NCBI GenBank assembly: GCA_949738935.1
Contig: CATJCJ010000341.1
Coordinates: 1 to 64,000, forward strand
Length of the DNA: 64,000 nucleotides
Direction of reading: 5' to 3'
Origin: an uncultured Eubacteriales bacterium
Lineage (GTDB): Bacteria; Bacillota; Clostridia; Lachnospirales; CAG-274
This document shows, piece after piece, positions 2,823 through 62,462 of this stretch. How positions within the stretch are numbered: position 1 is the first letter of the stretch; the number at the start of each line of letters is the position of its first letter. Below the pieces are notes generated by a model. It was not told the origin of the DNA and did not search any database. It was given only the letters and a program-made list of their open reading frames with translations. The position numbers were made by a program, and so were the translations under genes.

Positions 2823-4970
2823 ATGTTAAAACTCAGTATAAAAAAAACAACAACTTTAAACATGGTTCTTGTATTTTTGGCGTTTACAATAACAATAGTT
2901 TGCTCTATTTCTGGATATTATAACTCAGAAACAAAAGATTTGGCAGTTGGCATGGTAAGTCCAAAAAAATTTATAGCCAAAGAAGAAATCATAAATGAAA
3001 TAGCGACAAAAAGAAATATAGATAAAGCTGTTTCCGAGATGTCTCCTTTGTACACAAAAGATTCCACAATACAAAGTAAAGTTACAAAAGAGATAATTTC
3101 TTTTCTTGACTATATTCACTCAAACTCAGAACAACAGCAGCTTTTAACTCCAGCCATTCAGCCGTCATCTAAAAATAACAAATCTGAAAAACACGAAAAA
3201 AGCGATGAGAATATTGGCGAAAATACAGATACCACTAACGCAGACACATCTGAACTTTCATCAAAAATATATTTATCATCAAATCAAACTAATATTATTT
3301 CAACAATGACCGATGCTGATTTTAAAGAATTTAAAAATATAATTTTACAGACCGTAAATTCAGCCTTTGAACAAGGCATACGTGAGGATAATGAGGATAA
3401 AATATTAATTTATGTAAAAAGCGAATTGTCAGAGCATAATCTCTCAAATGAGCTGTTAAACATAGGCTATTCAATAATATCAAACACACTTGAGCCAAAT
3501 ATGATGATAGACACTGCCGCCACAGAAAAGGCTAAAGAAGAAAAAATCGCCTCAATAAAACCTGTAATGCTTTTAAAGAATCAAAAAATCGTAGATTCCG
3601 GAGAAATAATAAGCGAGGAAATATATTCACTTTTATACTCGTCAGGATATATTCAGAAAGATAATTTCAAAGAAAACATTATACCTTTATTGGGAACAGC
3701 ATTGTTAATATTTTCAGTATTTATAATGACCTCACTATATATATATAAATTTCATAAAAAGCTATATACAAGAAAAAATGAGGCTCTGCTTCTGTTTTCT
3801 TTATATACTATTCTAACAATATTAACAAAACTTTTAGCAAATGTCCCATATATGTTTATTCCTATACTTTCATTTACAATGCTTTTAGCTATGTTATTAA
3901 ACTATAGGCTAGCGATAATTTTAAATTTCAGCGTTTGTATAATATATTACATCGCTTTCAATTTTAGCACATCATTTCTAATATATTTTTCGACAACAGG
4001 AATGTTTACAGCGTTTATGGCAAATTTAATAAAAGAGCACAAAAAAATATTTAAAGTAGGATTGTTAAATTGCGTAGCCGGAGTATTTATAATAACAGGC
4101 ATAACATTATACATAAATAAAAGTTTCAATGAGGAATTATTAAAAAATTGCTTTTTAGCGTTTTCAAACGGAATACTAACTTTAATTATATGTATAGGCA
4201 GTATGCCGATTTGGGATTTTGTTTTTGATGTAGTAACACAATATAAATTGCTTGAGTTAATAAACCCTGACAAACCTCTTTTAAAAAAATTAATGCTTGA
4301 ATGCCCCGGAACATATAACCACAGTCTTATAGTAGCAAATCTCGCCGAGGCCGCCGCTCTTGAAATAGGAGCTAATTCCGCTCTGGCAAAAGTAGGAAGT
4401 TATTACCATGATATAGGAAAATTAAAGTACCCTCAATATTTCAGTGAAAATATTCGAGGAAAAAATCCTCACGACTCAATGAATCCTTACACAAGCGCGA
4501 AAATAATATCAAGTCACGTCACAGCCGGAGTTGAGTACGCTGAAAAATACAAACTTCCAAGTTCAATAAAATATATTATAGCTCAACATCACGGAAACAC
4601 ATTAATAAGTTTTTTCTACTTCAAGGCAAAACAAAATTCCGATGGAAAAAACATAAAAGAATCCGATTTCCGATACAAACAACAACCTCCTCAAACAAAA
4701 GAAACAGCGATAATAATGCTTGCTGATACTGTAGAAGCTGCGGTAAGAAGTAAAAACGAGACAAATCTTGAGGAAATAAAAAAATTCGTACACGAGCTTA
4801 TAAAAGGAAAATTAAACGATGGACAATTCAGCCAATGTTCTTTAAAAATAAGCGACCTAAACAAAATAGAAAACGCTTTTATGAAAGTTTTAAGCGGAAT
4901 GTATCATGAAAGAGTTCCCTACCCCACAGATAAAAAAGACGAATCTCAAAACTCAGAGGATAAACAGTAG
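2823..4970 (+). CDS. pgpH: 7TM-HD (PgpH-like) cyclic-di-AMP phosphodiesterase
   Basis: Multi-TM region then HD domain (CPGTYNHSLIVANLAEAAA...YYHDIGKLKYPQYFSEN); between phoH and ybeY. Confidence 0.9.
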   Translation: MLKLSIKKTTTLNMVLVFLAFTITIVCSISGYYNSETKDLAVGMVSPKKFIAKEEIINEIATKRNIDKAVSEMSPLYTKDSTIQSKVTKEIISFLDYIHSNSEQQQLLTPAIQPSSKNNKSEKHEKSDENIGENTDTTNADTSELSSKIYLSSNQTNIISTMTDADFKEFKNIILQTVNSAFEQGIREDNEDKILIYVKSELSEHNLSNELLNIGYSIISNTLEPNMMIDTAATEKAKEEKIASIKPVMLLKNQKIVDSGEIISEEIYSLLYSSGYIQKDNFKENIIPLLGTALLIFSVFIMTSLYIYKFHKKLYTRKNEALLLFSLYTILTILTKLLANVPYMFIPILSFTMLLAMLLNYRLAIILNFSVCIIYYIAFNFSTSFLIYFSTTGMFTAFMANLIKEHKKIFKVGLLNCVAGVFIITGITLYINKSFNEELLKNCFLAFSNGILTLIICIGSMPIWDFVFDVVTQYKLLELINPDKPLLKKLMLECPGTYNHSLIVANLAEAAALEIGANSALAKVGSYYHDIGKLKYPQYFSENIRGKNPHDSMNPYTSAKIISSHVTAGVEYAEKYKLPSSIKYIIAQHHGNTLISFFYFKAKQNSDGKNIKESDFRYKQQPPQTKETAIIMLADTVEAAVRSKNETNLEEIKKFVHELIKGKLNDGQFSQCSLKISDLNKIENAFMKVLSGMYHERVPYPTDKKDESQNSEDKQ

Positions 4971-5137
4971 ACTTCTTTCGAAACTATAAAATTACGTCAA
5001 TCCAACAAAAAAATATTTTATTCAATGTGAAGCGTCAGGCGTTTTGCTTTTTAAACGCCGAAAGCGTTAAAAAGCATTGAGTGAAATATTTTTTTACAGC
5101 GATGCTTATATCAATATGAAGTTTCGAAAGAAGTCTA
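4968..5137. mobile_element. MITE-like element A1 (170 bp incl. TA)
   Basis: Perfect 18-bp terminal inverted repeat TAGACTTCTTTCGAAACT / AGTTTCGAAAGAAGTCTA; internal AAACGCCGAAAGCGTT palindrome; second copy at 61391-61572. Confidence 0.85.
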
Positions 5138-15253: not shown

Positions 15254-15509
15254 TAAGAGCCTGTCTAAAAACTATTAAAATATCCAAAAAAATGAAATTT
15301 TAACCGGCTTTTCTTGCTTTTGAAGCATTTTAAAATTCATTTAAGAATCACAAATGAATTTTAAAATGCTTCAAAAGCAAGAAAAGGTAAGCTAAAATTT
15401 CATTCAGTGAAAATAATATCATTACGCCTCAAAATAATTTTATTTTCGCTGATTTTTTGTGTATATTTTGTTTTTAGACAGGCCTTTTTTAGATTTTAGA
15501 CAGGTTCTA
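15254..15509. mobile_element. MITE-like element B1 (256 bp incl. TA)
   Basis: Ends TAAGAGCCTGTCTAAAAAC and (reverse complement of right end) TAGAACCTGTCTAAAATC; contains a perfect 35-bp inverted repeat (15308-15342 / 15352-15386); right TA lies in the dgt stop codon. Confidence 0.8.
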
Positions 15510-36152: not shown

Positions 36153-37337
36153 TTAAATTCTTTCTTCAACACTTACAATGTCTGTCAATCTAATACCAAA
36201 ATTCTCATCAATAACAACAACCTCGCCTTTAGCGATATGTTTGCCATTAACCAATATATCAATAGGTTCTCCCGCAAGCTTATCAAGCTCAACAACAGTT
36301 CCTGGAGAAAACTCAAGAATCTCTTTAATAAGCTTATGAGTTCTTCCAAGTTCAACTGTAATTTCAAGGGGAACATCCATAATTATGCCAATATTTTCTT
36401 TTTGCTGCATAACAGCCGATACATCAAAATTTTGGAATTGAGCCGGCTGAACATTAACATTAGGCATAGGCTGCTGATACATCTGCTGTGGCATAGGCTG
36501 CTGATACATTTGCTGTGGCATAGGCTGCTGATACATCTGCTGTGGCATAGGCTGCTGAACCGGTTGCTGTGGCATAGGCGGCGGAGCCTGTTGCATAGGC
36601 GGTTCTGGCGGCGCTGGCGCTGGTTCTGGCTCTGGTGCTGCTGGTTCTGTGTTCATTCCGTTTTTCAGAGAATTTACCATATCCAAAGCAAAATTAACAG
36701 GAAGTATTTGCATAATCTCACTATCAATTAATGTTCCTACTTCCATTCTGAAACAAGTAGCAACAATAGGGTCTTCCTCAAAACCCAATTGCTCAAAAAA
36801 GCTATCGTCATTAAAATCAAGAACAAAAGCGTTCGGAGTATCTATATCAATTTTCATATTAAGCATAGATGAAAGCGAAGTCGCGGAAGAACCAACCATT
36901 TGATTCATAGCCTCAGCGATAGCGCTCAAATCAAGCTCTGAAAGCTCCTTATCCGGGTCAATTTCTCCTGTCCCGCCCATCATAAGGTCGGCTATTATCA
37001 TAACATCAAGTTGCTTAAGAACAAGAACATTCGCTCCGACAAGCCCCTCCTTATAACCAACTTTAATTCCAACACAAGGCCTGTCATATCTGTCCGCAAG
37101 TTCTTTCCAACTAAACACGGAAACTTTTGGAGTTGTTATATTAACCTTTTGGTTGAGCAAAGCGAACAAAGTTGTTGCCGCTGTACCCATACTAATATTA
37201 CCAATCTCCCCCAAAATATCTTTATCTTCATTTGAAACATTATCCAATGAAGCAGCTGAGGAATCTTCCCCTTCGAGATTGTTCTGAGCGTCACCTAAAA
37301 GAGCGTTTATCTCATCTTGAGAAAGCATATCTCCCAT
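36153..37337 (-). CDS. fliY: flagellar motor switch phosphatase FliY (CheC-like + FliN domains)
   Basis: N-term MLSQDEINALLG, CheC-like middle, Pro/Gln repeat linker, C-term FliN (VPLEITVELGRTHKLIKEILEFSPGTVVELDKLAGEPIDILVNGKHIAKGEVVVIDENFGIRLTDIV). Confidence 0.93.
   Translation of the reverse strand: MGDMLSQDEINALLGDAQNNLEGEDSSAASLDNVSNEDKDILGEIGNISMGTAATTLFALLNQKVNITTPKVSVFSWKELADRYDRPCVGIKVGYKEGLVGANVLVLKQLDVMIIADLMMGGTGEIDPDKELSELDLSAIAEAMNQMVGSSATSLSSMLNMKIDIDTPNAFVLDFNDDSFFEQLGFEEDPIVATCFRMEVGTLIDSEIMQILPVNFALDMVNSLKNGMNTEPAAPEPEPAPAPPEPPMQQAPPPMPQQPVQQPMPQQMYQQPMPQQMYQQPMPQQMYQQPMPNVNVQPAQFQNFDVSAVMQQKENIGIIMDVPLEITVELGRTHKLIKEILEFSPGTVVELDKLAGEPIDILVNGKHIAKGEVVVIDENFGIRLTDIVSVEERI
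36466..36573. repeat. 27-bp tandem repeat, four units, inside fliY
   Basis: ATAGGCTGCTGATACATCTGCTGTGGC repeated at 36466, 36493, 36520 and 36547 (last diverged); encodes MPQQMYQQP. Confidence 0.9.
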
Positions 37338-55752: not shown

Positions 55753-55789
55753 TTAGACAGGCTTTTTTTAGATTTTAGACAGATTCTTA
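55753..55789. repeat. solo B-family terminal repeat (37 bp)
   Basis: TTAGACAGGCTTTTTTTAGATTTTAGACAGATTCTTA, near-identical to the right end of B1 and to 61901-61937 (inverted). Confidence 0.7.
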
Positions 55790-58437: not shown

Positions 58438-58602
58438 TAGACCCTGTTTAGTAACCTAAATGACAACGATTGACAAAAGATTTTTTGTCAGTCGAAGCCT
58501 GATTTTTGCGGGAATACTCGTAGCGGTATTTCAAAAAATCAGGCAAAGACAGGCGGAAAAAGATTTGTCAAGCTTTATTATGGAGGTTACTAAACAGGTC
58601 TA
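58438..58602. mobile_element. MITE-like element E1 (165 bp incl. TA)
   Basis: TAGACCCTGTTTAGTAACCT ... AGGTTACTAAACAGGTCTA; internal GCCTGATTTTT...AAAAATCAGGC; second copy E2. Confidence 0.85.
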
Positions 58603-58976: not shown

Positions 58977-59143
58977 TAGACCTGTTCGATAACCTAAGCT
59001 GTGACGATTGGCAAGAGATTTTTCCGCCATACGAAGCCTGATTTTTGCAGGAATACTCGCAGCGGTATTTCAAAAAGATCAGGCAAAGTATGGCGGAAAA
59101 AGGTCTGTCAAGCGGCATTGCGGAAGTTATTGAACAGGTTCTA
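58977..59143. mobile_element. MITE-like element E2 (167 bp incl. TA)
   Basis: TAGACCTGTTCGATAACCT ... AAGTTATTGAACAGGTTCTA; internal sequence closely matches E1, same orientation. Confidence 0.85.
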
Positions 59144-59228: not shown

Positions 59229-61112
59229 TCATACATTATCATCATACCTCAAAGCCCTTGTGGCGTTCAAAACAGCTATAACCATAACACCCACATCCGC
59301 GAAAATAGCAAGCCACATATTAACAAAACCAAGAGCGCCAAAAGCGAGGCAAAGAAACTTAACAGTCAAAGAAAACACAATATTTTGGCGAACTATTCCA
59401 AGGGTTTTAGCCGAAATTTTCATAGCCATAGCTATTTTCATAGGGTCATCGTCCATAAGTACAATATCGGCAGCCTCAATAGCGGCGTCCGAGCCCAGAG
59501 CCCCCATAGCGATACCAAGGTCAGCTCTTGAAAGAACAGGAGCGTCATTAATTCCGTCACCCACAAAAGCCAGCTTCTCCTTATCCGTCTTTTTATTAAG
59601 AAGTTTTTCCACCTCAATAACCTTATCCTCTGGAAGAAGCTCACTTTTAACAACATCAACGCCAATCTCCTCAGCGATAAACTCCGCCGACTTTTTATTA
59701 TCTCCTGTAAGCATAACAACTTCTTTAATTCCAAGTTGTTTTAAACTACCAACAGCTTTTTTCGAGTTATCTTTTATAACATCAGAAATCAGAATAAATC
59801 CGGCGTATTTATCATTTATAGCCACATGTATTTCAGTTCCGGGATTTGATATGTCAAAAGCAAAATTCTCATAAGGCACTCCGACTTTTTTCATAAGCTT
59901 TATACTTCCAACGGCAATTTTTTTACCATTAACAACCGCTTTCACCCCATACCCGCTTATTTCTTCCGTATCAGTCACACAAGAAGAATCTATCTCCTTT
60001 CCGTACGCTCTTCTCAAACTTTTACTTATAGGGTGATTAGAATAATTTTCAGCGTAAGCGGCGGCCTCAAGCACTTCCTCCTCCGAAAAATCATTTACCG
60101 GGTTAATCTGAGTAACATCAAACACACCTTTCGTCAAAGTACCTGTCTTATCACATACAATATACTTTGTATTCGCCAGCGCCTCAAGATAATTTGAGCC
60201 TTTCACAAGAATTCCTTTAGACGATGCCCCTCCTATACCGCCAAAAAAACTAAGAGGAATTGATATAACCAAAGCGCATGGACAGCTTATTACCAAAAAT
60301 ATAAGAGCCCTGATTATCCATTGAGACCAAAGAGGCTCATTACCCATAAACACACTGATAACAGGCGGCAGCACAGCAAGAGCCAAAGCCGCTCCGCAAA
60401 CAACAGGAGTATAATATTTTGAGAATTTTGTAATAAAATTTTCAGATTTAGATTTTTTCATACTTGAATTCTCAACAAGGTCAAGTATTTTAGAAACTGT
60501 AGAATCCCCAAATTCTTTTGATGTTTTCACATAAAGCAAACCCGATAGATTTATACATCCGCTTATAACCTCATCACCCTCTTTAACCTCTCTCGGAAGA
60601 CTTTCTCCGGTCAAAGCACTCGTATTTAAAGCCGAACATCCTTTTTGTATAACGCCGTCAATAGGAATTTTCTCACCCGGCTGAACAACAATAACAGTTC
60701 CCTCCTCAACCTCCTCAGGGTCAACCGAAACTATTTTTCCGTCTTTTTCAATATTAGCGTAATCTGGTCTTATATCCATAAGAGCGGCTATATTTTTTCG
60801 GCTTTTCCCGACAGCGTAACTCTGAAAAAGCTCGCCGATTTGATAAAAAAGCATAACCGCTGTACCTTCAGTATACTCTCCCAAAAATATAGCCCCTATT
60901 GTGGCAACCGCCATAAGAAAATTTTCATCAAATATTTCCCCATGAAAAATTCCAAATATAGCTTTTTTTAAAATATCAAATCCCACAATAAAATAAGGAA
61001 TTAACAAAAGTACCAGTCCGATATATCCACTCAAATTAATAATATTAAATATTATCATCAAAATCAAAGACAATATTATTCGTATAAGAGTCCTTTTTTG
61101 CTTTTTATTCAT
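59229..61112 (-). CDS. heavy-metal P1B-type ATPase (Zn/Cd/Pb type)
   Basis: CPCALVISIPLSFFGGIGGASSKGILVKGSNYLEAL, CDKTGTLTKG, GDGINDAPVLSRADLGIAMG; no N-terminal HMA. Confidence 0.95.
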   Translation of the reverse strand: MNKKQKRTLIRIILSLILMIIFNIINLSGYIGLVLLLIPYFIVGFDILKKAIFGIFHGEIFDENFLMAVATIGAIFLGEYTEGTAVMLFYQIGELFQSYAVGKSRKNIAALMDIRPDYANIEKDGKIVSVDPEEVEEGTVIVVQPGEKIPIDGVIQKGCSALNTSALTGESLPREVKEGDEVISGCINLSGLLYVKTSKEFGDSTVSKILDLVENSSMKKSKSENFITKFSKYYTPVVCGAALALAVLPPVISVFMGNEPLWSQWIIRALIFLVISCPCALVISIPLSFFGGIGGASSKGILVKGSNYLEALANTKYIVCDKTGTLTKGVFDVTQINPVNDFSEEEVLEAAAYAENYSNHPISKSLRRAYGKEIDSSCVTDTEEISGYGVKAVVNGKKIAVGSIKLMKKVGVPYENFAFDISNPGTEIHVAINDKYAGFILISDVIKDNSKKAVGSLKQLGIKEVVMLTGDNKKSAEFIAEEIGVDVVKSELLPEDKVIEVEKLLNKKTDKEKLAFVGDGINDAPVLSRADLGIAMGALGSDAAIEAADIVLMDDDPMKIAMAMKISAKTLGIVRQNIVFSLTVKFLCLAFGALGFVNMWLAIFADVGVMVIAVLNATRALRYDDNV

Positions 61113-61137: not shown

Positions 61138-61356
61138 TCAAATAAATATCTCAAAATCAGACTCAATTCTTTTACTTTTTTTAACAACCTCTTTCATAAT
61201 CGAATCAACATCAGCGTTATCCTCAAACTCTATTTTCATCTTCTGAGTAACGAAAGCGACAGCGGCATTTGACACACCCTCTATTTTTTTAACAGCCTCC
61301 TCAATTTTCAAAGCGCAAGCGGCGCAATCCACCTCAATACCATATATCTTTTTCAT
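61138..61356 (-). CDS. stand-alone heavy-metal-associated (HMA) domain protein
   Basis: 72 aa MKKIYGIEVDCAACALKIEEAVKKIEGVSNAAVAFVTQKMKIEFED; CxxC (CAAC). Confidence 0.88.
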   Translation of the reverse strand: MKKIYGIEVDCAACALKIEEAVKKIEGVSNAAVAFVTQKMKIEFEDNADVDSIMKEVVKKSKRIESDFEIFI

Positions 61357-61390
61357 AAAGACAGTCCTCCTTCTAGTTATTTTTATATAT

Positions 61391-61572
61391 TAGACTTCCC
61401 TTGATACTACAAAATTAAATCAATCCAATAAGAAGTATTTTATTCAATATTTTAGCGAAAGGCGTTTTACTTTTTAAACGCCGAAAACGTTAAAAAGTAT
61501 TAAATGAAATATTTTGTTTTTAGACAAGTTCTAACAATACCAATACAGGTATACAGTTTCGAAAGAAGTCTA
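61391..61572. mobile_element. MITE-like element A2 (182 bp incl. TA)
   Basis: TAGACTTCCCTTGATACT ... AGTTTCGAAAGAAGTCTA; interior aligns with A1, plus ~18-bp B-family-end-like insertion GTTTTTAGACAAGTTCTA (61516-61533). Confidence 0.8.
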
Positions 61573-61573
61573 T

Positions 61574-61715
61574 TATAGTAATTACACTTAAATTATAACA
61601 AAAAAATATTTTACGAGTGCGTAAGAACTGCTGGGTGATAAGCGAATTGCGAAGCAATTTGCAGCCCATGCAAGTAAAATGCTTTTTTTGTAACCTTTAA
61701 AGTGTAATTACTATA
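61574..61715. mobile_element. MITE-like element D (142 bp incl. TA)
   Basis: Perfect 16-bp inverted ends TATAGTAATTACACTT / AAGTGTAATTACTATA; extended stem through TTATAACAAAAAAA.. / ..TTTTTTTGTAACC; abuts A2. Confidence 0.85.
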
Positions 61716-61730
61716 TTTCTCTTTAAATAT

Positions 61731-61760
61731 ATTGTATATGAACATATGCTCATTTGTCAA
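61731..61760 (-). promoter_or_regulatory. promoter of HMA/P-type ATPase genes with dyad operator in the spacer
   Basis: On - strand TTGACA (61760-61755), 18-nt spacer, TACAAT (61736-61731); dyad TGAACATATGCTCA at 61739-61752. Confidence 0.6.
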
Positions 61761-61900
61761 GTATAATTTTACGTAAAAATCAAATTTTAAGGGACTTTTA
61801 ATCGACGAACTTGTTTATTTTTAAATTACTTGACTATAAACCAAAAATAATATAATATCTTAATAAAACCGGATAAATTTGCAAATATGCCATAAAAACC

Positions 61901-62462
61901 TAGGAACCTGTCTAAAATCTAAAAAAGCCTGTCTAAGGAGATACAACTATGAAAATAAACGAAATAAAAACAAACAAAAAAAGATACATCTCTTTGCTTT
62001 TACTTGCTGACGAACAAGAAAGTATGATTGACCGATATTTAGATAAAGGAACAATGTATATTTTAGATGACGGCGGAATAAAAGGCGTCTGTGTTGTCAC
62101 AGATGAGGGAAATAATATTTTAGAAATAAAAAATATAGCGATAGAGCCAAAATATCAACGCAAAGGATATGGAAAAAAATTTATTGACTTTATCTCAGAA
62201 AAATACAAAAGCAGATATACATCATTACAAGTAGGAACCGGAGACAGTCCGTTAACAATACCATTTTACGAAAAATGCGGTTTCAAAAAATCCCATACCA
62301 TAAAAAATTTCTTTATCAATAACTATGACCATCCTATATTTGAAGCCGAAATTCAATTAATTGATATGATATATTTAAAAAAATCTATCTCCGACTGTCG
62401 AAAAAGTTAAATTTTCTGAAAATTTTTCAATTTTCAAAAGCGCCGTTTTTAGACAGGTTTTA
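61901..62462. mobile_element. GNAT gene bracketed by B-family terminal repeats (562 bp)
   Basis: Left TAGGAACCTGTCTAAAATCTAAAAAAGCCTGTCTAA; right GTTTTTAGACAGGTTTTA; TA at both outer ends. Confidence 0.5.
61949..62410 (+). CDS. GNAT family N-acetyltransferase
   Basis: NIAIEPKYQRKGYGKKFIDFISEKYKSRYTSLQVGTGDSPLTIPFYEKCGFKKSHT; RBS aaggaga. Confidence 0.92.
   Translation: MKINEIKTNKKRYISLLLLADEQESMIDRYLDKGTMYILDDGGIKGVCVVTDEGNNILEIKNIAIEPKYQRKGYGKKFIDFISEKYKSRYTSLQVGTGDSPLTIPFYEKCGFKKSHTIKNFFINNYDHPIFEAEIQLIDMIYLKKSISDCRKS

Follow-up and report, generated by a model that had tools for sequence, protein, structure and literature searches.

Metal-transporting P1B-ATPase operons are repressed by regulators of the ArsR/SmtB family (CzrA, SmtB and CadC type), and binding of the metal releases the repressor. 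A different influence on an efflux operon is exerted in Neisseria meningitidis by the Correia element (CREE/NEMIS), a small MITE with TATAG ends that has inserted between the native promoter and the mtrCDE genes and hence lies in the mRNA leader (PMC2649163, PMC10969869). The element is cleaved by RNase III within the mtrCDE mRNA, and operons that carry it have lost control by MtrR and MtrA (PMC2649163); processing by RNase III was also described for Correia element transcripts (PMC10969869). Moreover, in the Correia “Black” promoter the -35 box and a partial -10 box belong to the element and the insertion site completes the -10 (PMC2649163). RUP of Streptococcus pneumoniae is a MITE derived from IS630-Spn1 (PMC2229807).

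Here we describe a heavy-metal efflux operon of an uncultured Eubacteriales bacterium, a gut-type Clostridia draft genome of 885 contigs with an estimated contamination of 8.6%, which by analogy may be regarded as a close functional parallel of the meningococcal mtrCDE case. The locus lies on an 80-kb contig, of which a stretch of 64,000 nucleotides (the window) was analysed. Read along the minus strand, a divergent GNAT gene (starting at 61949) is followed by the repeats F1 and F2, the -35 box, a palindromic spacer, the -10 box, MITE D, a single base, MITE A2, 34 nt carrying the AAGGAGG ribosome site, the HMA gene (ATG at 61356) and the P1B-type ATPase gene (Table 1). The repeats F1, F2, D and A2 together take up about 75% of the 592 bp between the two genes.

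Table 1. Features of the efflux operon and its upstream region (positions in the window).
Feature	Position	Strand	Basis
Divergent promoter candidate TTGACT-N17-TAATAT (or N15-TATAAT), for the GNAT gene at 61949	61830..61858	+	promoter scan
MITE F2, short derivative, left end TATAGTCAAGTA, right end TACTTGAC, outer tip decayed	61756..61838 (61756 approximate)	-	family in four genus genomes
-35 hexamer TTGACA, its TTGAC within the F2 right inverted repeat	61755..61760	-	promoter scan
Operator-like palindrome of ArsR/SmtB type, AAATGAGCATATGTTCATAT, filling the -35/-10 spacer	61736..61755	-	sequence match
-10 hexamer TACAAT	61731..61736	-	promoter scan
MITE D, 142 bp, ends TATAGTAATTACACTT / AAGTGTAATTACTATA	61574..61715	-	dispersed copies, constant ends
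Hybrid promoter candidate TTGTTA-N18-TATAAT	61572..61601	-	10/12 consensus; straddles the D/A2 junction
MITE A2, left end TAGACTTCTTTCGAAACT, right end decayed	61391..61572	-	dispersed copies
Ribosome binding site AAGGAGG 5' of the HMA ATG, beyond both MITEs	61365..61371	-	sequence; predicted fold
HMA-domain metallochaperone-like gene, operon gene 1, 72 aa	61138..61356	-	PF00403 HMA E=1e-10
Heavy-metal P1B-ATPase gene (Zn/Cd/Pb type), operon gene 2	59229..61112	-	TIGR01525 and TIGR01512 above cut-off

A preliminary description of this DNA had named TTGACA-N18-TACAAT (61760-61731, minus strand) as the only good promoter upstream of the operon. With 11 of 12 consensus positions it is the best scorer of the region, but it is not the sole fair site, as the hybrid candidate at the D/A2 junction shows. 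Owing to the AT-richness of the region, promoter-like sites are in excess here (19 found, versus 8.9 ± 3.3 in shuffled sequence). Transcription from the upstream promoter, the sole one with signs of regulation, is predicted to start near 61724. Its spacer palindrome, which the description had not mentioned, is a putative ArsR/SmtB-type operator: AAATGAGCATATGTTCATAT deviates by 1 mismatch from ATATGANCATATGNTCATAT and is the sole site with at most 1 mismatch in the four genus genomes, all other sites having at least 3. Closely similar palindromes mark the promoters of HMA-ATPase operons, with or without an arsR gene in front, in the sister genomes G001 and G003 and in other Clostridia, where the operator usually lies at the -10 box or just 3' of it, in contrast to its position between -35 and -10 at the present locus. 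The genome encodes a single recognisable ArsR, on contig C234 (G000:C234) and unlinked to the pump operon. This protein shares 84% identity with the regulators of G001 and G003 that adjoin such operators, has a QSAVSHQLRVLRQ recognition helix identical to theirs and carries a DxHx10HxxH metal site. Hallmarks of an ArsR/SmtB operon, a palindromic operator conserved at the promoter and a candidate cognate repressor encoded in the genome, were thereby both found. As in the CzrA, SmtB and CadC type systems, an imperfect 20-bp palindrome is placed at the HMA-ATPase promoter and an ArsR with this metal site is encoded, but the locus differs from them in its unlinked regulator gene and in the position of the operator between -35 and -10. 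Putative binding of the C234 ArsR to the palindrome would place the predicted promoter under metal control, and this strengthens the earlier choice of the start site. A similar ArsR-type palindrome is located just 3' of the -10 box of a second HMA-containing ATPase gene (L162; G000:C114 812-831), which suggests that the single ArsR controls a small metal regulon.

The limits given for D and A2 in the preliminary description are exact, and the copies found in the genome confirm both as MITEs. D is present in more than 40 full or partial copies, 87–96% identical, with constant ends in unrelated flanks. Further copies occur in sister genome G002; in G001 there is one close copy, and those of G003 are diverged. 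Beyond the genus there are short end matches only. The element has terminal inverted repeats and no ORF of at least 50 aa, and its mobile unit spans 61713-61576 with an inferred TA duplication. In L052 a nested D copy sits within another MITE; joined with one TA, the two flanks of this copy yield a 92-bp element that shows no gap in alignment with an uninterrupted 92-bp element in L189; hence D duplicates a TA target. TATAG ends are common to D, F2 and several relatives, and ends of this superfamily flank broken DDE_3 genes in L108 (TATAGCAATCCAA) and L195 (TATAGCTAAAGAACTT). At L108 (1400-2579; G000:C479), TATAGCAATCCAA ends enclose a decayed element of IS630 type whose DDE_3 transposase is broken; these ends correspond to those of a sister subfamily rather than exactly to those of D. 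Neither an intact parent with TATAGCAATCCAA ends nor a transposase with exact D ends was found in the genome. Because of the TA duplication and the TATAG ends flanking IS630-type DDE_3 genes, D is most likely an IS630-derived MITE. In this it resembles RUP of S. pneumoniae, with which it shares a size of about 100–150 bp, the TA target and, for D at the level of the TATAG end type, ends in common with an IS630-family element (PMC2229807), whereas the end sequence differs and the parent-type L108 is broken and has ends of the sister subfamily. D was also considered as a Correia element and rejected: comparison of the 26-bp CREE pattern TATAG[CT]GGATTAA... (PMC2649163) with the D end TATAGTAATTACACTT gave agreement in TATAGT only.

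Within the TATAG superfamily (L031-L060, L172-L191 and others), the two ends of one copy agree much better than ends taken across copies. For the non-D elements, same-copy agreement was 9.0 of 11 positions versus 7.2 between copies, a difference that 0 of 2000 permutations reached. The arms thereby give the impression of evolving together, although some bias in the picking of copies is possible.

A2 has about 40 relatives in the genome, 74–91% identical, with TAGACTTCTTTCGAAACT ends; no transposase with such ends was seen among the genome's DDE_3 and DDE_Tnp_1 loci. D and A2 belong to two unrelated MITE families. The two as a composite mobile unit were considered and rejected, other CTATA-A-TAGACTTC junctions being without D. 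Four A-family copies (L012, L013, L026 and window 61566-61579) share the junction CTATAATAGA(C/T)TTC, hinting at a target preference of the family, and the window copy alone abuts D. A further A2-family copy, about 76% identical, is located at 4968-5137 of the window.

D and A2 account for 324 of the approximately 368 nt of predicted leader. Removal of both, with one TA kept each, leaves ...TACAATATATTTAAAGAGAAATAATAATATATAAAAATAACTAGAAGGAGGACTGTCTTTATG and a predicted leader of about 48 nt. The preliminary description had raised the comparison with relatives lacking both elements, and such relatives exist: the orthologous operon of G002 (ATPase 80% identity) and about 20 more distant operons have short leaders, with about 70–80 nt from the -10 box to the HMA ATG (distances by eye) and no MITEs of D or A2 type. 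Most of these MITE-free operons carry ArsR-type operators. Given the leaders of about 48 and 368 nt and the short MITE-free relatives, the sequences indicate that the inserts lengthened the leader by about 320 nt. An empty site at the locus was not found, and gene order differs in the sister genomes; in G002 the GNAT, csp-panD-panC and HMA-ATPase genes are spread over three contigs, and no close orthologue of the locus was seen in genus genomes other than G002.

The two strong hairpins foreseen for the leader are borne out by the predicted folds, both being far better than those of shuffled sequences. D folds at -42.9 kcal/mol (z = -6.1), with a perfect terminal stem of 16 bp, and A2 at -40.3 kcal/mol (z = -4.2); together they contribute nearly all of the -88.3 kcal/mol of the whole leader. 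The fold is modular, D and A2 forming separate closed hairpins with the ribosome site unpaired to either, which argues against control by masking of that site. Apart from the hairpins, nothing was seen in favour of the proposal that they attenuate, insulate or stabilise the transcript. D copies occupy intergenic positions of all kinds, be it upstream or downstream of genes or between them; base-pair covariation in D is slight (double changes in 6 of 45 pairs, energy gain -0.56), too small to claim selection at the RNA level; a scan that allows loops of 3–8 only detected no terminator-like site within either element; and an Rfam search returned nothing near the gathering score. By analogy with Correia transcripts (PMC10969869), the likeliest consequences of the hairpins would be RNase III processing and altered mRNA half-life.

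The idea that the elements carry a replacement promoter stood in part. The D end holds most of a second promoter, TTGTTA-N18-TATA, whose TTGTTA and TATA are kept in nearly all D copies, but the final AT is supplied by the junction with A2. The design, TTGTTA-N18-TATA|AT (61601-61572), is that of the Correia element, a -35 and a partial -10 box completed by the site, though as an analogy only. Shared with the element at mtrCDE are furthermore the TATAG ends, the small MITE size and the insertion between the native promoter and the efflux operon, hence in the mRNA leader (PMC2649163, PMC10969869). The two cases differ in the inverted repeat past TATAG, in the phylum and in the pump, a drug pump there versus a metal ATPase here; in addition, two elements of unrelated families are stacked at the present locus and the operator is still upstream of the inserts. 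The locus would offer an independent Firmicute parallel of mtrCDE, in which a TATAG-ended half-promoter MITE separates an efflux operon from its regulated promoter.

With moderate confidence we favour a metal-inducible efflux operon in which D and A2 inserted separately at TA sites just 3' of the promoter and extended the leader from about 48 nt to some 368 nt, with metal-derepressed readthrough of both. The -35/-10 palindrome would be occupied by the C234 repressor of the ArsR/SmtB family until Zn(II) or Cd(II) frees it, and RNA polymerase would start near 61724 and transcribe D and A2. Each element would fold on itself as a closed hairpin, leaving the ribosome site free, and could plausibly be cut by RNase III. 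Basal expression may also come from a weak, unregulated start at the D/A2 junction. Metal control would be kept because promoter and operator are upstream of both inserts, and the net effect of these on output is probably small. Were the junction promoter the main start, the pump would be uncoupled from metal control, as the Correia element did to meningococcal mtrCDE. Its 10 of 12 consensus positions, the -35 and TATA half built into D and the design shared with the “Black” promoter (PMC2649163) speak for this, but the upstream promoter scores higher, its operator is intact and such half-promoters arise beside any AT-rich flank, so that we regard it as rather unlikely.

The promoter itself could be read in another way, with the spacer palindrome as an operator of the MerR family (ZntR/CueR-like) and activation by DNA untwisting, since the midpoint of the palindrome falls exactly between -35 and -10, in a spacer that exceeds 17 bp. 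MerR-type promoters usually have spacers of 19–20 bp, however, versus 18 bp here, and the AT-rich ATATGAxCATATGxTCATAT matches the ArsR-type operators at the metal-ATPase operons of relatives; this reading is very improbable. Attenuation by D or A2 would lower pump expression, the strong D hairpin with a U7 tract on its 3' side acting as a partial terminator. We consider it quite improbable, for in the full fold U7 pairs with A7 of the other arm, the stem directly 5' of U7 is rich in AU, the terminator scan called no site in D or A2, and D copies are not restricted to gene ends. The inserts might also be passive passengers without any effect on expression, in keeping with the largely repetitive intergenic region, the MITE clusters elsewhere in the genome (L052, L175, L049 and L060) and the damaged right end of A2. 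Two stable leader hairpins of about -40 kcal/mol, on the other hand, usually change processing or half-life somewhat, and complete neutrality is unlikely. Under the metal-inducible readthrough that we prefer, the insertion is probably fortuitous and its effect modest, and the arrangement is a fresh instance of an already known type of event.

Just upstream of the metal promoter lies F2, a third MITE of the region that the preliminary description did not include. Its family, with ends TATAGTCAATCAACTT...AAGTTGATTGACTATA, was seen in 4 of 4 genus genomes, and the right-end 8-mer TACTTGAC has a chance of about 4e-4 in shuffled sequence (0.016 for any 8-mer of the end). The ends of F2 hold -35 hexamers: the right end has the TTGAC of the pump -35 box and the left end the TTGACT of the divergent promoter. 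F2-family ends were not significant as general -35 donors, with -10-like hexamers 16–18 bp from 61 TTGACTATA ends in 16 cases versus 11.7 ± 2.7 expected. Since the right end is decayed at its outer tip, F2 is put forward only as a hypothetical source of the -35 boxes. If it were the source, MITE ends would serve as parts of a metal-regulated promoter with the repressor site retained. A bolder and doubtful possibility is that the divergent promoter region was built wholly from transposons, F2 at the operator edge providing both -35 boxes and D and A2 then adding the leader and a second, metal-independent promoter, so that a metal-responsive promoter would have been reassembled from MITEs around an operator that survived.

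Several other repeats were observed in the window. F1 (61936-61901) is a 36-bp dispersed repeat, TTAGACAGGCTTTTTTAGATTTTAGACAGGTTCCTA, with two AGACAGG motifs spaced 21 bp apart; the genome contains dozens of near-identical copies, often beside a hairpin ending TTTTTTGTGTATATTTTGTTT, and F1 also occurs at 15474-15507 and 55753-55789. Palindromic repeats just downstream of the ATPase gene (58443-58598 and 59020-59076) possibly represent another, TAGAC-type family, the TAGACCTGTTC ends of which were seen in L016 and L052. At 36436-36597, 27-bp tandem repeats (GGCATAGGCTGCTGATACATCTGCTGT) are situated inside an apparent coding sequence.
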